A stretch of 64,000 bases of DNA, from assembly GCF_900167525.1 (NCBI RefSeq), contig NZ_FUZQ01000001.1, forward strand, positions 124,001-188,000, read 5' to 3'. Made by a program: the position numbers and the translations under genes. The DNA comes from Krasilnikoviella flava. GTDB lineage: Bacteria; Actinomycetota; Actinomycetes; Actinomycetales; Cellulomonadaceae. Numbering within the stretch: the first letter of the stretch is position 1; each line of letters starts with the position of its first letter. The notes under the pieces are model-generated. The model made no database searches, was not told the origin of the DNA, and saw nothing but the letters and a program-made list of their open reading frames with translations. Shown piece after piece: positions 19,590-48,979 of the stretch.

Positions 19590-21347
19590 ATGAAACTCAG
19601 GAGAACCGTCGCCATGGTGGTGGTCCCGCTGCTCGGGGCGCTGTCGCTGGCGGCCTGCACGGCCGCAGGGTCCGACGACGACCCGTCCGGCCCGGTCAGC
19701 ATCGACCAGGACTGGTCCGAGGCCGACCCGATCACCGTCGACGTCTACGACGGCCTGGCCAACTACATGGGGATCCAGGGCGGGTGGTTCGGCAAGATCG
19801 TCAAGGACAAGTTCAACATGGAGCTCAACATCATCGCTCCCAACGTCGCGGGCGGGGGCGACACCCTCTACAACACCCGCGTCTCCGGGGGTGAGCTGGG
19901 CGACCTCGTCGTCGTCGACAAGGGGCGGCAGATGGACGAGCTCGTCGAGGGCGGCCTGCTGCTGGACGCCTCCGACTACTACGGGTCCATGACGAACGTG
20001 TCGCCGTTCGACACGGCCGTCCAGCACCTCAACGAGGGCAAGGAGGGCGTCTACGGCTTCCCCACGTCGGTCTCCTCCCTCAAGCCGACCGAGTCGTCCG
20101 AGGGCATCGACCCCACGTTCGGCCCGTACCTGCGGTGGGACCTGTACGCCGACGCCGGCTACCCGGAGATCGGCACGCTCGAGGACCTCCTGCCGATCCT
20201 CAAGACGATGCAGGACGCCCATCCCCAGACCGACGACGGCAAGCCGGTCCACGCCATCTCCCTGTTCAAGGACTGGGACGGCAACATGATGGTCACCGCC
20301 AAGCAGCCCGCGACCCTCTACGGGTACGACGAGATGGGCTTCGTCCTCGCGAAGGCGGACGGGTCCGACTACCAGAGCATCGTCGACCCGGACTCCCAGT
20401 ACGTGCGTTCGCTGAAGTTCTACTTCGACGCCAACCAGCTGGGCCTGGTGGACCCGGAGTCCACCACCCAGAACTACGACACGATGTTCGCGAAGTACCA
20501 GGCCGGCCAGGTGCTGCTCTCGTGGTGGCCGTGGCTGGGTCAGTCCGCGTACAACACCGAGCAGAACATGGCGGACGGCAAGGGCTTCGAGCTGGCCCCG
20601 CTGCAGGACCAGAAGGTCTTCTCCTACGGCGCCGAGGTGTACGGCGGCAAGCAGATCATCGGCATCGGCTCGGGCGCCGAGGACCCGGCCCGCCTGGCCG
20701 CGTTCGTCGACTGGCTCTACTCCCCCGAGGGCATCCTCGCCAGTGCCTCGGAGACCCAGGGGGCGGCCGGCCCCGAGGGCCTCACCTGGGAGAAGGGCGA
20801 GGACGGTGCCCCCGTGTTCACCGACTTCGGCACGAAGGCGATCCTCGAGGGCGGCGCCGACGTGCCCGCCGAGTGGGGCGGCGGCGCGTACAAGGACGGT
20901 GTCTCGGCGCTCAACGTCTCCACGGTGCTGCCGATCGACGAGAACCCCGACACGGGCTACCCGTACAGCTACAAGTACTGGCCGAGCTACCAGGAGACGA
21001 CCAGCAACCCGCTGACCGACGACTGGACCTCCCACATGGGCGACCCCGCCTCGACGATGGACTACCTGCAGCAGAACGACCAGGTCGTCGTCGCCCCGGG
21101 CGCGAGCTTCACCACCCCGACGGACAGCTCCGAGATCGAGGCCATCCGCAGCCAGGTCAAGGCCACCATCATCGAGCACTCCTGGAAGATGGTCTTCGCC
21201 AAGGACGACGCGGAGTTCGACGCCCTGCTCGCACAGATGCAGTCGACGGTCGACGGCCTCGGCTACGCCACCGTGCTCGAGTTCGACATGGCGAACGCCA
21301 AGGCGCAGAACGACGCGCGCGTCGCGGTCGCCAAGGAGTTCGGGTGA
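19590..21347 (+). CDS. Sugar-binding lipoprotein, LipO/YtcQ type
   Basis: 585 residues from ATG 19590 with ribosome site GAAGGGG. The signal peptide ends at the lipobox LAAC (Cys about 23). The length well above 440 and the pattern GGWFGKIVKDKFNMELNII, VVDKGRQMDELVEGG and EVYGGKQIIGIGSGAEDPARLAAFVDWLYSPEG are characteristic of the large LipO/YtcQ binding proteins for oligosaccharides of plant polysaccharides. It is the last gene of the importer operon, closed by a 19-bp hairpin. Confidence 0.92.
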   Translation: MKLRRTVAMVVVPLLGALSLAACTAAGSDDDPSGPVSIDQDWSEADPITVDVYDGLANYMGIQGGWFGKIVKDKFNMELNIIAPNVAGGGDTLYNTRVSGGELGDLVVVDKGRQMDELVEGGLLLDASDYYGSMTNVSPFDTAVQHLNEGKEGVYGFPTSVSSLKPTESSEGIDPTFGPYLRWDLYADAGYPEIGTLEDLLPILKTMQDAHPQTDDGKPVHAISLFKDWDGNMMVTAKQPATLYGYDEMGFVLAKADGSDYQSIVDPDSQYVRSLKFYFDANQLGLVDPESTTQNYDTMFAKYQAGQVLLSWWPWLGQSAYNTEQNMADGKGFELAPLQDQKVFSYGAEVYGGKQIIGIGSGAEDPARLAAFVDWLYSPEGILASASETQGAAGPEGLTWEKGEDGAPVFTDFGTKAILEGGADVPAEWGGGAYKDGVSALNVSTVLPIDENPDTGYPYSYKYWPSYQETTSNPLTDDWTSHMGDPASTMDYLQQNDQVVVAPGASFTTPTDSSEIEAIRSQVKATIIEHSWKMVFAKDDAEFDALLAQMQSTVDGLGYATVLEFDMANAKAQNDARVAVAKEFG

Positions 21348-21393
21348 AGGTTCAGGTGACGGCCACGGCCCGCTGACGGGTCGCCGGTCACCG

Positions 21394-21438
21394 CACGACG
21401 AAGGGCTCGGGCACACGGCGCCCGAGCCCTTCGTCGTG
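21394..21438. terminator. 19-bp perfect hairpin between convergent operons
   Basis: Positions 21394-21412 and 21420-21438 are perfectly complementary (19 bp) with a 7-nt loop. It sits 46 bp past the binding-protein stop and 8 bp from the DUF624 gene stop, so it can end transcription from both sides. There is no T-run on the plus side. Confidence 0.75.
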
Positions 21439-21446
21439 CTCGCGCG

Positions 21447-26090: not shown

Positions 26091-26786
26091 TCAGAAGAGA
26101 CGCGAATCCACGTCGTCGACCCCGCGCATCGCGTCGTAGTCGAGGACCAGGCACTCGATCCCGCGGTCCGTCGCGAGCACGCGCGCCTGGGGCTTGATCT
26201 CCTGGGCGGCGAAGACGCCGCGCACCGGGGCGAGCAGGGGGTCCCGGTTGAGGAGCTCGAGGTACCGGGTCAGCTGCTCGACGCCGTCGATGTCGCCACG
26301 GCGCTTGAGCTCCACCGCGACCGTCGCGCCGGAGGCGTCGCGGGCGAGGATGTCCACCGGCCCGATCGCCGTCATGTACTCGCGGCGCACCAGCGTGTGC
26401 CCTGCGCCGAGGTGGTGGATCTGTGCGGCCAGCAGCTCCTGCAGGTGGGCCTCGACACCGTCCTTGACCAGGCCGGGATCGATGCCCAGGTCGTGGGCGG
26501 AGTCGTGCTCGACCTCGTGCAGCTCGATCTCCAGGCGGTCGTCCGACTTCTGGTGCTGCACCGTCCACACCTGGGTGACGCCGCGCTCGCGGGCCTCGTC
26601 GTCGGGCTCCCCGACCGCCGTCGAGCAGGGCGGGCTCATCCAGTTCAGCGGCTTGTACGAGCCGCCGTCGGAGTGCAGCAGCACGCTGCCGTCCGCCTTG
26701 ACGACGATGAGCCGCGTGGCGAGCGGCAGGTGCGCGGTGAGCCGGCCGGTGTACCGGGCCGAGCAGCGGGCGACGACGAGACGCAC
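26091..26786 (-). CDS. nucS: Endonuclease NucS (non-canonical mismatch repair)
   Basis: 231 residues from GTG 26786. NucS/EndoMS cuts both strands at mismatches and replaces MutS/MutL in actinobacteria and some archaea. The N-terminal dimerisation domain ([16 protein letters not shown]) is followed by the restriction-like nuclease domain with [12 protein letters not shown] and [13 protein letters not shown], giving the catalytic D-ExK residues. It sits downstream of the atp cluster and DUF2550 gene, an arrangement common in actinobacterial genomes. Assignment is secure. Confidence 0.95.
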
Positions 26787-26844
26787 GGTCCCCCTCGTGG
26801 TGTGGTGTCGGGCGGTCGGTGCGGTGCCGTTCGTCCGGACCGGC

Positions 26845-27270
26845 CTACAGGACCAGGTCGCGGCGCCCCGGGGGCGCGGACTCGAGCCAGGACGCCAGCC
26901 CGGCGTACGCGCCGGAGGACATCAGCAGCTCGAAGTCGGTGCCGTCGTAGCGACAGCGCACCAGCACCTGGTCGGGCTGGCCGGCCTGGTCGAGCGGGGC
27001 CCGGCCGGTGATCGAGAGCCCGTCGCGCAACCAGACACGCGCCGGACGAGGCGCGAGCGACCACCCGCGCCACCAGTCGATGCGGCCCACGGCGTAGTGG
27101 GCGATCCCCACCATCCACGCGGCCTGCGGGTCGTCCGCGGGCCGGGCGTGGCAGGGGAAGGAGCCGACCCTCCGGGAGAGGGTCCGCAGGCGGGAGGCGC
27201 CGGCGGCGAGCACCAGTCCGAGCGCGACGACGAGAGCCACCGCGGTCCAGACGACGTACGCCACCGACAC
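26845..27270 (-). CDS. DUF2550 family membrane protein
   Basis: 141 residues from GTG 27270. A single N-terminal membrane segment ([19 protein letters not shown]) precedes a cytoplasmic domain with [26 protein letters not shown] and [18 protein letters not shown], the pattern of the DUF2550 family found next to atpC in actinobacteria. It starts only 5 bp after atpC ends, so it is probably part of the atp transcript. No function is established. Confidence 0.85.
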
Positions 27271-27275
27271 CTACC

Positions 27276-27560
27276 TCAGCGCAGCGCCGGCTCGCGGCCG
27301 GACAGCTCCGTGACCTCGTCCACGACGATCGTGACGAGGTTGCCGTCGACGGAGACGAACCCGCCGGTCACGTGCGCCTCGACCGCGGTCTCGTGGGCCG
27401 TCGACACCTTGACCGTGCCCGGGCGCAGCACCGCGAGGAGCGGGGCGTGGCCGGCCAGGATGCCGACCTGCCCGTCGACGGACGGTGCGCTGACCTCGCG
27501 CGCCGCGCCGGACCAGACCTTGCGGTCGGCCGCGACGAGGTCCACGTTCAGCTCTGCCAT
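27276..27560 (-). CDS. atpC: F1F0 ATP synthase epsilon subunit
   Basis: 94 residues from ATG 27560 (MAELNVDLVAADRKVWSG), preceded by AGAGGAC and GGAG. The N-terminal beta-sandwich is complete (GQVGILAGHAPLLAVLRPGTV, VTGGFVSVDGNLVTIVVDEVTE), but the C-terminal helical hairpin that regulates ATP hydrolysis in longer homologues is absent or vestigial. The protein links the gamma shaft to the c-ring. An upstream in-frame ATG at 27599 would add 13 poorly conserved residues. It is separated from atpD by a 100-bp spacer with a strong hairpin. Confidence 0.95.
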   Translation of the reverse strand: MAELNVDLVAADRKVWSGAAREVSAPSVDGQVGILAGHAPLLAVLRPGTVKVSTAHETAVEAHVTGGFVSVDGNLVTIVVDEVTELSGREPALR

Positions 27561-27605
27561 CTCCAAGTCCTCTTTCCCATCGTGCGAGGGGTCGTGCATC
27601 GGTCA

Positions 27606-27646
27606 CGTCGTCCCGCCGGGAGGGTGGTCCTCCCGGCGGGACGACG
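27606..27646. other. 18-bp perfect hairpin between atpD and atpC
   Basis: Positions 27606-27623 and 27629-27646 are perfectly complementary with a 5-nt loop (GTGGT). It lies inside the atp operon, after the atpD stop and before the atpC start. No T-run follows on the minus strand, so it may be an attenuator, processing site or 3' stabiliser that lowers epsilon expression. Confidence 0.65.
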
Positions 27647-27660
27647 CGGGGACGAGACCG

Positions 27661-30115
<2,455 letters not shown>

Positions 30116-30117
30116 GC

Positions 30118-31746
30118 TCAGGCCTTCTTCTGCACGACGAGCTGCTCCTGCTCGACGTCCGCGGCCTCGTCCTCGGCGTCACCGCCGACGAGCGGGGTGC
30201 CGTCGGCCTTGAGGAAGCCGTTGCGCACGTCCTCGACCGCCGCGGTGAGCGCGTCCTCGGTCTCCTGCTCGAGCTTGCCCGTCTCCGCGATCGTGGAGAG
30301 CACGGAGGTGTGGCGGCGCAGGTGGTCGAGCATCTCGGACTCGAACCGCTTGACGTCCTCGACGGGGACGTCGTCGAGCTTGCCCTTGGTACCGGCCCAC
30401 ACGGACGCGACCTGGTCCTCGACCGGGTACGGCGTGTACTGCGGCTGCTTGAGCAGCTCCATGAGCACCGCGCCGCGGGCGAGCTGGCCACGCGAGGCGG
30501 CGTCGAGGTCGGACGCGAACATCGCGAACGCCTCGAGCGACCGGTACTGCGCCAGCTCGAGCTTCAGCGTGCCGGAGACCTTCTTCATCGCCTTGATCTG
30601 CGCGTCACCGCCGACTCGGGAGACGGAGATGCCGACGTCGACCGCCGGGCGCTGGTCGGCGTTGAAGAGGTCCGACTGCAGGAAGATCTGGCCGTCGGTG
30701 ATGGAGATGACGTTGGTCGGGATGTACGCCGAGACGTCGTTCGCCTTCGTCTCGATGATCGGCAGGCCGGTCATCGAGCCCGCGCCCAGCTCGTCCGAGA
30801 GCTTGGCGCAACGCTCGAGCAGGCGGGAGTGCAGGTAGAAGACGTCGCCGGGGTACGCCTCGCGGCCCGGCGGGCGGCGCAGCAGCAGCGACACGGCGCG
30901 GTAGGCCTCGGCCTGCTTCGACAGGTCGTCGAAGATGACCAGCACGTGCTTGCCCTGGTACATCCAGTGCTGGCCGATGGCCGAGCCGGTGTACGGGGCG
31001 ATGTACTTGAAGCCCGCCGGGTCGGACGCCGGGGCCGCGACGATCGTCGTGTACTCGAGCGCGCCGGCCTCCTCGAGGGCGCCGCGCACGGAGGCGATCG
31101 TCGAGCCCTTCTGACCGATGGCCACGTAGATGCAGCGCACCTGCTTGGCCGGGTCGCCCGACTCCCAGTTGGCCTTCTGGTTGATGATCGTGTCGATCGC
31201 GATCGCCGTCTTGCCGGTCTGCCGGTCGCCGATGATCAGCTGGCGCTGACCGCGCCCGATCGGGATCATCGAGTCGATCGCCTTCATGCCGGTCTGCAGC
31301 GGCTCGTGCACCGACTTGCGCTGCATGACGCCGGGCGCCTGGAGCTCGAGGGCGCGGCGGCCCTCGCTCTCGACGTCGCCCAGACCGTCGATCGGGTTGC
31401 CCAGCGGGTCGACGACGCGCCCGAGGTAGCCCTCGCCGACGGGGACGGACAGGACCTCGCCGGTACGGCGGACCTCCTGCCCCTCCTCGATGCCGGCGAA
31501 CTCGCCGAGGACGACGACGCCGATCTCCCGGACGTCCAGGTTCAGCGCGAGGCCGAGCGTGCCGTCCTCGAAGCGCAGCAGCTCGTTCGCCATCGCGCCC
31601 GGGAGGCCCTCGACCTGCGCGATGCCGTCGGCGGCGGAGGTGACGCGGCCGACCTCCTCGCTGACCGCGCCCTCGGGCTCGTACGACTTCACGAAGCTGT
31701 CCAGTGCGGCGCGGATCTCCTCCGGCCTGATCGTCAGCTCAGCCAT
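30118..31746 (-). CDS. atpA: F1F0 ATP synthase alpha subunit
   Basis: 542 residues, with the non-catalytic nucleotide site Walker [11 protein letters not shown] and the conserved arginine-finger segment in [15 protein letters not shown]. The start is ATG 31746 ([11 protein letters not shown]). The C-terminal 30 residues form an acidic tail ([15 protein letters not shown]) longer than in enteric homologues, as often seen in actinobacteria. It is 83 bp downstream of atpH. Confidence 0.98.
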
Positions 31747-31829
31747 TGCTCTCTCCTGTCGTGGCCGCGTATCGCGCGGCCTCACGTTCTGCGTAGCCGA
31801 CCGGAGCCGGCGCTGGGCCTGGGAAGGGT

Positions 31830-32644
31830 TCAGCCGGCCAGCCGGCGACGGGCGTCGGCCAGGCGGGACAGCACGGTGGAGTCGACGACGTCCGCGCCGA
31901 CCTGGATGCGCAGGCCACCGATCACGGCCGGGTCGACCGTGACGTTGAGCTGCACCGCGCGCCCGTAGGCGCGCTCGAGCAGCCCGGCGAGCCGGTCCTG
32001 CTGGGACTGGCTGAGGACGGAACCGCTGGTGACCGTGGCCACGAGGCGACGGCGCCGCTCGGCGGCGATCTCCCCGTACCACAGCAGCGTCGCCACGAAG
32101 CGGCGGCCGCGGAGGTGCGTCGTGGCCCGGCGGGCGAGCGTCAGCGTGACACCGTCCACCTTGCCGGTGAGCAGGGCGTCGACGAGCTGGGCCCGGCGCT
32201 CGGGGTCGGTCGCACCGCCCGAGAGCACCTGCCGCGCCTCGCGCTGGCCGACGAGCGCCCGGGTCAGCCGGAACAGCTCGTCCTCGACGGTCTCGAGGGC
32301 GCCCCGCGACTCGGCGGACGCCAGCACGGCGTCCAGCCCGAGGCGCTCGACGGCGTCGGCGAGGTCCGCGTCCCCGGACCAGCGCGACCGCGCCAGCCCC
32401 GTGACCAGGTCCACGACACGCTCGTCGAAGCCGCCGGCGAGGACGCGGCCGGCCAGCGCCGCCCGGTCCTCCGGGTCACGCGACGGGTCGGCCAGCGACC
32501 GGCGCAGCGGCCCGGAGGAGTCCAGGGCCGCGACGACGGCGAAAAGCTGTTCGCCGAGCGTCTGCCCGTCCGCCCCGGCCGACCTCAGGACCGGCTCGAA
32601 CCGCTCCTGTGCCGCCGCGAGGGAGGCTCCGCTGGTGCCCCGCA

Positions 32645-32645
<1 letters not shown>
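31830..32645 (-). CDS. atpH: F1F0 ATP synthase delta subunit
   Basis: 271 residues, long for a delta subunit (about 180 in E. coli) but common in high-GC actinobacteria. The conserved C-terminal delta/OSCP signature is present ([50 protein letters not shown]). It joins the peripheral stalk to F1. The ATG overlaps the atpF stop by 1 bp (TGATG-type junction), giving translational coupling. Confidence 0.96.
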
Positions 32646-34445
<1,800 letters not shown>

Positions 34446-39528: not shown

Positions 39529-39634
39529 GATGCTCCTTGGTGTGATGCCACCGGGTCGCCCCGCAGGACAGCGGGCCGTGAACCGGAAGGCCGACGAGCC
39601 ATTGTGCCAGAACGCAGAGCGCCTGAGGAAATTC

Positions 39635-48791: not shown

Positions 48792-48864
48792 GCGCCTGTA
48801 GCTCAGTGGATAGAGCGTCTGCCTCCGGAGCAGAAGGTCGGGGGTTCGAATCCCTTCAGGCGCA
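48792..48864 (+). tRNA. tRNA-Arg (anticodon CCG)
   Basis: 73 nt folding as a cloverleaf: acceptor GCGCCTG/CAGGCGC, anticodon stem TCTGC/GCAGA with loop CTCCGGA, anticodon CCG at 48825-48827, T-loop GGTTCGAATCC. The discriminator is A and the full CCA end is not encoded. It reads CGG codons, abundant in this GC-rich genome. Confidence 0.97.
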
Positions 48865-48877
48865 CCGAGAACGACGA

Positions 48878-48908
48878 GAACGGCCCTGGTCATCGACCAG
48901 GGCCGTTC
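48878..48908 (+). terminator. Terminator of tRNA-Arg
   Basis: A 14-bp perfect stem GAACGGCCCTGGTC/GACCAGGGCCGTTC with 3-nt loop starts 13 bp after the tRNA, followed by TTCGTGT. Confidence 0.8.
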
Positions 48909-48926
48909 TTCGTGTCCGACGGCGAT

Positions 48927-48979
48927 GACGTAGCGATTCCTGCTCGTCCCGCCGTGGGACGAGCAGGAATCGCTACGTC
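48927..48979. repeat. 24-bp perfect inverted repeat, probably terminator of the MHS transporter gene
   Basis: 48927-48950 and 48956-48979 are exactly complementary with a 5-nt loop (GCCGT). It ends 6 bp from the transporter stop codon. The stem is longer and less GC-rich than ordinary terminators in the window, so it may also be a mobile or dispersed repeat unit. Confidence 0.75.

Follow-up and report, generated by a model that had tools for sequence, protein, structure and literature searches.

A conserved U-less hairpin between atpD and atpC in the ATP synthase operon of Krasilnikoviella flava and related Actinomycetes

Transcript ends of Streptomyces mapped by Term-seq include U-poor, stable hairpins at which read-through is greater than at U-rich ones, as described in the accessible parts of two studies (PMC8269248, PMC12207403), and for the terminator hairpins of this genus covariation and possible RNA processing are reported in the available text of one of them (PMC12207403). 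For Clostridia, internal stem-loops are described as setting the ratios of neighbouring genes, and the operons predicted to contain them include ATP synthases (PMC9045158, PMC8219983). In Escherichia coli, excerpts of a further study describe differential decay guided by RNA structure, the protective structures lying mostly within coding regions (PMC5927463). For the ATP synthase itself, the accessible portion of a study on S. coelicolor states a 3:1 ratio of beta to epsilon and reports that ribosome footprints on the atp genes track subunit stoichiometry (PMC4895711).

Here we analyse a hairpin between atpD, encoding the F1 beta subunit, and atpC, encoding epsilon, in Krasilnikoviella flava. 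It lies in a stretch of 64,000 nucleotides that is called the window throughout. The kind of element is known, whereas no description was found of its instance at atpD-atpC or of the near all-or-none pattern that it forms in the family; the literature, judged largely from titles and abstracts, yielded no account of a hairpin at the actinobacterial atpD-atpC junction.

The hairpin and its operon

Pfam matches and gene calls give the minus-strand order atpB, atpE, atpF, atpH, atpA, atpG, atpD, hairpin, atpC, followed by the genes for a DUF2550 protein, the endonuclease NucS and an amidohydrolase (Table 1). The spacer between atpD and atpC measures 100 nt, and in all other gaps between atp genes the hairpin scan returned nothing scoring 12 or more. 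The DUF2550 and nucS genes stand close behind atpC on the same strand, and an atp transcript reading through would include both.

Table 1. Features of the atp region, in positions of the window
Feature	Position	Strand	Evidence and remarks
nucS-like endonuclease gene	26091..26786	-	PF01939 E 6.9e-42, PF21003 E 1.6e-27; downstream, co-directional
DUF2550 protein gene	26845..27270	-	PF10739 E 6.7e-34; directly after atpC
atpC, F1 epsilon subunit, 94 aa	27276..27560	-	ATP-synt_DE_N PF02823 E 1.1e-24
Purine-rich stretch ahead of atpC, outside the stem	27561..27576	-	Shine-Dalgarno-like AGAGG/GGAG; read by eye, aligned in the genus alignment
RNA hairpin	27604..27648	-	18 perfect pairs, 20 with flanks; loop 27624-27628; no U tract after
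Arms of the perfect inverted repeat	27606-27623 / 27629-27646		Inverted-repeat search of the window
atpD, F1 beta subunit	27661..29187	-	ATP-synt_ab PF00006 E 4.6e-72; start codon uncertain (29187, or 29142 by gene call)
atpG	29216-30115	-	Pfam match, gene call
atpA	30118-31746	-	Pfam match, gene call
atpH	31830-32645	-	Pfam match, gene call
atpF	32645-33244	-	Pfam match, gene call
atpE	33244-33474	-	Pfam match, gene call
atpB	33576-34445	-	Pfam match, gene call; upstream atp block 29216..34445

A preliminary description, made from the sequence, had reported a perfect 18-bp hairpin with a 5-nt loop at 27606-27646, and the inverted-repeat search returned it at exactly these coordinates. When the minus strand, which is the atp coding strand, is folded, the stem extends to 20 bp with a dG of -46.2 kcal/mol, and the 111-nt junction reaches a minimum free energy (MFE) of -62.8 kcal/mol as compared to -43.4 +/- 4.0 in 200 shuffled versions (z -4.9). 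No hairpin scoring above 14 arose in six sequences of 464 kb that were simulated with a first-order Markov model to match the dinucleotide make-up of 464 kb of the same genome. The atpD-atpC hairpin scores 18, and the real 464 kb holds 43 hairpins scoring at least 14, of which 18 score at least 18. The atpD-atpC hairpin is real and beyond chance.

The stem starts 12-14 nt past the stop codon of atpD and ends 43-45 nt ahead of the atpC start, by which it covers neither this stop codon nor the ribosome-binding region of atpC. The 8 nt following the 20-bp stem contain a single T and those following the 18-bp core contain two, and at none of 63 hairpin-bearing junctions do the 8 nt downstream of the stem include as many as five T. 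Because this U-rich tract is missing, a canonical intrinsic terminator was rejected as an assignment for the window hairpin. What is found is the form of a U-less gene-end hairpin, namely a very stable GC-rich stem-loop soon after a stop codon with fewer than three U in the next 8 nt, and equally that of a decay-stop element, a stable stem-loop separating two genes of an operon whose subunits are present in unequal numbers. A search for known RNA families gave no match at the gathering threshold at this locus; a relaxed search returned sub-gathering matches only (the best being mir-4672, 31.5 bits vs 98), which were attributed to the chance resemblance of any long hairpin. Elsewhere in the window, an L31-Actinobacteria ribosomal protein leader (RF03158) is matched at 39546-39594 on the minus strand, just over its gathering score (35.8 vs 35).

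The 94 residues of the atpC product, which the preliminary description had called short, are ordinary: epsilon measures 86-101 aa in the family loci with a placed atpC, most of the remaining placed loci from the same taxonomic order have 85-97 aa, and a short epsilon was therefore dismissed as a special feature of this locus. At class level, 124-135 aa are found in 11 of 13 placed loci; the other two, of 81-82 aa, perhaps have a misplaced start. In the K. flava product, Pfam matched the beta-sandwich domain only, and the C-terminal domain is without a match.

Conservation in genus, family and class

The genus set consists of 18 genomes (Isoptericola-type), that of the window included, of which 16 have an atpD match; the two without are G006 (74% complete) and G015 (86% complete). 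RNA folding found the hairpin in 16 of 16 testable junctions, and its absence from close relatives, named in the preliminary description as grounds for giving it up, is not what the spacer comparison returned. In the alignment of these junctions (A1) the stem comprises 19 pairs, 92.7% of the cells are paired, and 11 of the 19 pairs have changed on both sides. The covariation score amounts to 0.353, compared with 0.163 +/- 0.018 in shuffles that take no account of relatedness (0 of 500 reach the observed value) and with 0.073-0.119 if the partner is slid by 1-3 columns. RNAalifold recovers the same stem unaided. Compensatory changes, a shared core and the location of all 16 hairpins within 45 nt of the stop codon point to selection on pairing at atpD-atpC.

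In the family, 155 of 160 searched genomes have atpD, and 134 junctions were examined, 21 matching genomes not being included. Of these junctions 132 are usable; L075 was excluded for its Ns and L120 (G065) for a contig end with atpC not found, and the atpD-atpC region of the latter shows long G and C runs, perhaps an assembly fault. Spacers of at least 64 nt were found at 73 of the 132 junctions, and every one of these 73 folds with an MFE no higher than -30 kcal/mol. Since long spacers fold more strongly through length alone, the z-scores are the weighty measure, and these lie below -2 in 68 of the 73, the remaining five being weaker, up to -0.7. Spacers of 20-63 nt (44 of 132) never have a z below -2, and four of them reach an MFE of -15 kcal/mol or below; the last 15 junctions have spacers under 20 nt. 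The family junction is close to all-or-none, being either about 44 nt or overlapping without a hairpin, or about 65-170 nt with one. All usable junctions are long in genera g1, g3, g4, g7, g8, g12, g15, g19, g44 and g45, a part of them in g42 (6/18), g10 (2/7) and g9 (1/10), and none in the other family genera sampled. The statement of the preliminary description that short, tight junctions are usual here does not hold for the genus and the nearer genera, where a long junction with a hairpin is the norm, although 59 of the 132 usable family junctions are under 64 nt.

In 67 family junctions passing a single-hairpin test, which admitted starts up to 45 nt and missed some stems with branches or bulges (six g7 junctions and L013), the stem starts 0-27 nt past the atpD stop codon. 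A finder restricted to Watson-Crick pairs missed L016, L025 and all 13 junctions of g7. The sequence of the stem differs between genera while its pairing persists, and pairs changed on both sides are also seen in other genera, more weakly than in the genus (g1 9/17, g7 0/23, g8 4/18, g44 2/28, g15 2/22).

At class level, atpD was found in 64 of 69 searched genomes, 20 junctions were taken and the start of atpC could be located in 13 of them, the seven without placement being L198-L200, L203 and L211-L213. Of the 13 placed junctions, L201, L204, L205, L206 and L210 have clear spacer hairpins, those of L194-L196, L202 and L207-L209 are short or overlapping as placed, and in L197 the spacer as placed is long, with no single dominant hairpin. 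Strong hairpins also follow the atpD stop codon in L198, L199, L200 and L203, where atpC is unplaced. A tally of 15 hairpins in 20 class-level junctions counts folds within the atpC coding sequence and is unusable. The arrangement atpD-hairpin-atpC is wider than the family and far from universal.

Hairpins at other gene ends and alternative explanations

For a comparison within the genome, hairpins scoring at least 12 were collected from the 464 kb, in which 388 protein genes were called. Convergent gaps contain U-less hairpins in 19 of 67 cases, co-directional gaps in 22 of 254 and divergent gaps in 2 of 66; 23 more lie inside gene calls, and none of the listed co-directional or convergent hairpins of the 464 kb is followed by at least five T in 8 nt. 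Those in co-directional gaps sit 2-83 nt past the upstream stop codon; besides the one at atpD-atpC, a hairpin separates the gene of a substrate-binding protein from the permease gene that follows it, and another separates rplY from the following pth. Between species the rplY hairpin is swapped for unrelated hairpins (L214-L231, 18 genus genomes), and L221 has a short tandem repeat instead. In the window itself, a 20-bp perfect hairpin with a 7-nt loop and no flanking U tract is located at 21393-21439, where two genes converge with their ends at 21347 (+) and 21447 (-). Tandem strong hairpins of 15 and 24 bp, both perfect, are located at 48877-48909 and 48927-48979 just downstream of a tRNA gene (48792-48864, +), of which they are probably the transcript end.

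Such hairpins might simply build up behind stop codons wherever the GC content of a genome is high, in which case the one at atpD-atpC would be a tolerated by-product with no role in dosage. This would agree with the co-directional gaps of 60-129 nt, 10 of 59 of which carry a hairpin, atpD-atpC among the ten, and with three control junctions that were followed through the 18 genus genomes. Under the criterion of a strong hairpin no more than 45 nt from the stop codon, 16/16 is obtained for atpD-atpC, 15/18 for rplY-pth, 9/18 for substrate-binding protein-permease and 9/18 for DUF501-ppx. The three misses at rplY-pth and the nine at the permease junction are strong hairpins (at least 14 pairs) situated 46-67 nt past the stop codon, and with the position limit lifted both junctions have a hairpin in 18 of 18 genomes, kept while the sequence changes. 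The 45-nt criterion flatters atp, and the distinction of the atp hairpin is its constant place and its core, not its mere presence. These two properties, together with the compensatory substitutions, argue against a by-product, which we consider unlikely.

A full terminator, followed by an own promoter for atpC-DUF2550-nucS adjoining or inside the stem, appears quite unlikely. Inspection by eye of L203-L205 (7.9-9.7 Mb, class level) showed a first hairpin, then TAGAAT or TAGACT, a second hairpin and atpC, which is possibly a terminator and then a promoter. Against an own promoter stand the distance between stem and atpC, merely 30-50 nt in the genus, and a simple scan of 26800-29300, weak for actinobacterial promoters, that found no sigma-70-like site. 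Moreover, TANNNT is not enriched after the stem across the family (5 of 67 vs 8.5 expected), for which reason a promoter between stem and atpC was rejected and atpC is probably dependent on read-through.

The hairpin might also act in translation, by altering ribosome entry at atpC or by blocking its coupling to atpD, as proposed for the uncDC structure of E. coli at the same junction; Dallmann and Dunn reportedly found in 1994 that this structure governs uncC expression. Since the entire stem is situated past the stop codon and ahead of the ribosome-binding region, which it leaves free, a uncDC-like role is less likely, and we hold translational control to be decidedly improbable.

A perfect inverted repeat with the partly conserved core CGTCSYCCYGCCG could also be a repeat of the mobile or dispersed kind, or a palindrome in the DNA to which a protein binds, but both are highly improbable, as one strong locus per genome is found in place of the several similar copies of a REP- or MITE-like element and, between genera, the sequence is replaced with the pairing retained. 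A covariance model has its best match at the atp locus in 11 of the 12 genus genomes searched, the exception being G006, which lacks an atpD match, and at E <0.01 only opposite-strand matches on the same hairpins and one extra match remain (G000:C8:80026-80121, E 0.008, in the window's own genome). A similarity search with the stem returned, at E up to 0.001, its own sequence and its own opposite strand only. With at most one mismatch, the core exceeds its reversed control in genomic occurrences by a modest margin only (661+644 vs 561+552), and the repeat insertion suggested in the preliminary description was abandoned. Concerning a palindrome, G-U cells outnumber A-C cells by 31 to 8 (25 to 5 by genus and position), as expected for an RNA on the atp strand, in a test that is weak, T exceeding A on the sense strand anyway and genus g8 giving 11 vs 9.

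Proposed role and comparison with known systems

In its position, predicted structure, conservation with compensatory change, lack of a U tract and likeness to hairpins after other genes, the element resembles the gene-end hairpins of the genome. We think it somewhat probable that it is an ordinary U-less, GC-rich actinobacterial gene-end hairpin placed inside an operon, which would give an mRNA ending after atpD with read-through to atpC-DUF2550-nucS. Among the options of the preliminary description, an mRNA end fits best, the stem standing just after the stop codon and having the same form as the hairpins in convergent gaps; a regulated level of epsilon would follow from this reading.

On the atp transcript, the hairpin would create a stable 3' end after atpD. 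RNA polymerase would partly terminate at the stem, perhaps with NusG or Rho, or else, alternatively or additionally, 3'-to-5' exonucleases would halt there. The abundant mRNA would end past beta, and atpC, DUF2550 and nucS would be carried on read-through transcripts only, keeping epsilon (one per enzyme) below beta (three per enzyme) and partly uncoupling the downstream genes from the ATP synthase. By analogy with other systems, the hairpin may lower the expression of the last subunit, epsilon. Czyz is said to have found in 2014 that mycobacterial RNA polymerase needs a U tract, which would disfavour intrinsic termination and leave the decay-stop form; the location of protective structures mostly within coding regions in E. 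coli likewise counts against the proposed role.

Several observations speak against a gene-end hairpin that adjusts subunit dosage. No hairpin follows the gene of alpha, also present three times per enzyme, where the gamma gene begins 2 nt downstream, and two of the three control junctions likewise always have a strong hairpin when position is left free, presence alone not being special to atp. Since 59 of the 132 usable family junctions lack the long spacer, assembly of the enzyme does not require the hairpin. It could help to reach the atp stoichiometry, for which translation alone would also be sufficient. The wider claim, that the hairpin splits the ATP synthase operon between beta and epsilon across a large part of the Actinomycetes, with read-through setting the epsilon dosage and tying NucS (and DUF2550) to ATP synthase transcription, seems doubtful to us.

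The family offers a natural comparison between genomes with the hairpin and genomes with a junction of about 44 nt or an overlapping one, all with the same short epsilon. This contrast bears on whether U-less hairpins halt transcription, block decay or have no effect, a choice that the Streptomyces Term-seq work leaves open in its accessible parts, and on whether epsilon dosage depends on the hairpin.

Among the known systems, the E. coli uncDC mRNA shares with our locus an RNA structure at the very same junction. That structure is said to cover the uncC ribosome site and to be opened by translation of uncD, whereas the stem described here lies outside atpD and is separated from the atpC start by 43-45 nt, so that the ribosome site is not occluded. 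An intercistronic hairpin of the Rhodobacter puf operon was reportedly described by Chen in 1988. The decay-stop hairpins of puf and of E. coli malEFG (for the latter, as far as excerpts of PMC5927463 describe it) resemble the predicted atp hairpin as structures separating genes whose products join one complex in unequal numbers; the atp hairpin concerns different genes in a different phylum. The internal terminators and SRPS stem-loops of Clostridia, found in operons of ABC importers and ATP synthases, are alike in that a stem-loop after one gene sets its ratio to the next, and unlike in that the available text describes them with 3' U-rich tracts. The U-less ends of Streptomyces and other GC-rich bacteria (HS-U-lack, 'I-shaped') differ from the atp hairpin, a predicted structure, which is located inside a conserved operon about 45 nt ahead of the next start codon. 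In the accessible parts of the two studies, these ends have the long GC-rich stem, the short loop, the location near a stop codon, the lack of a U tract and the covariation that are also seen between atpD and atpC (PMC8269248, PMC12207403).
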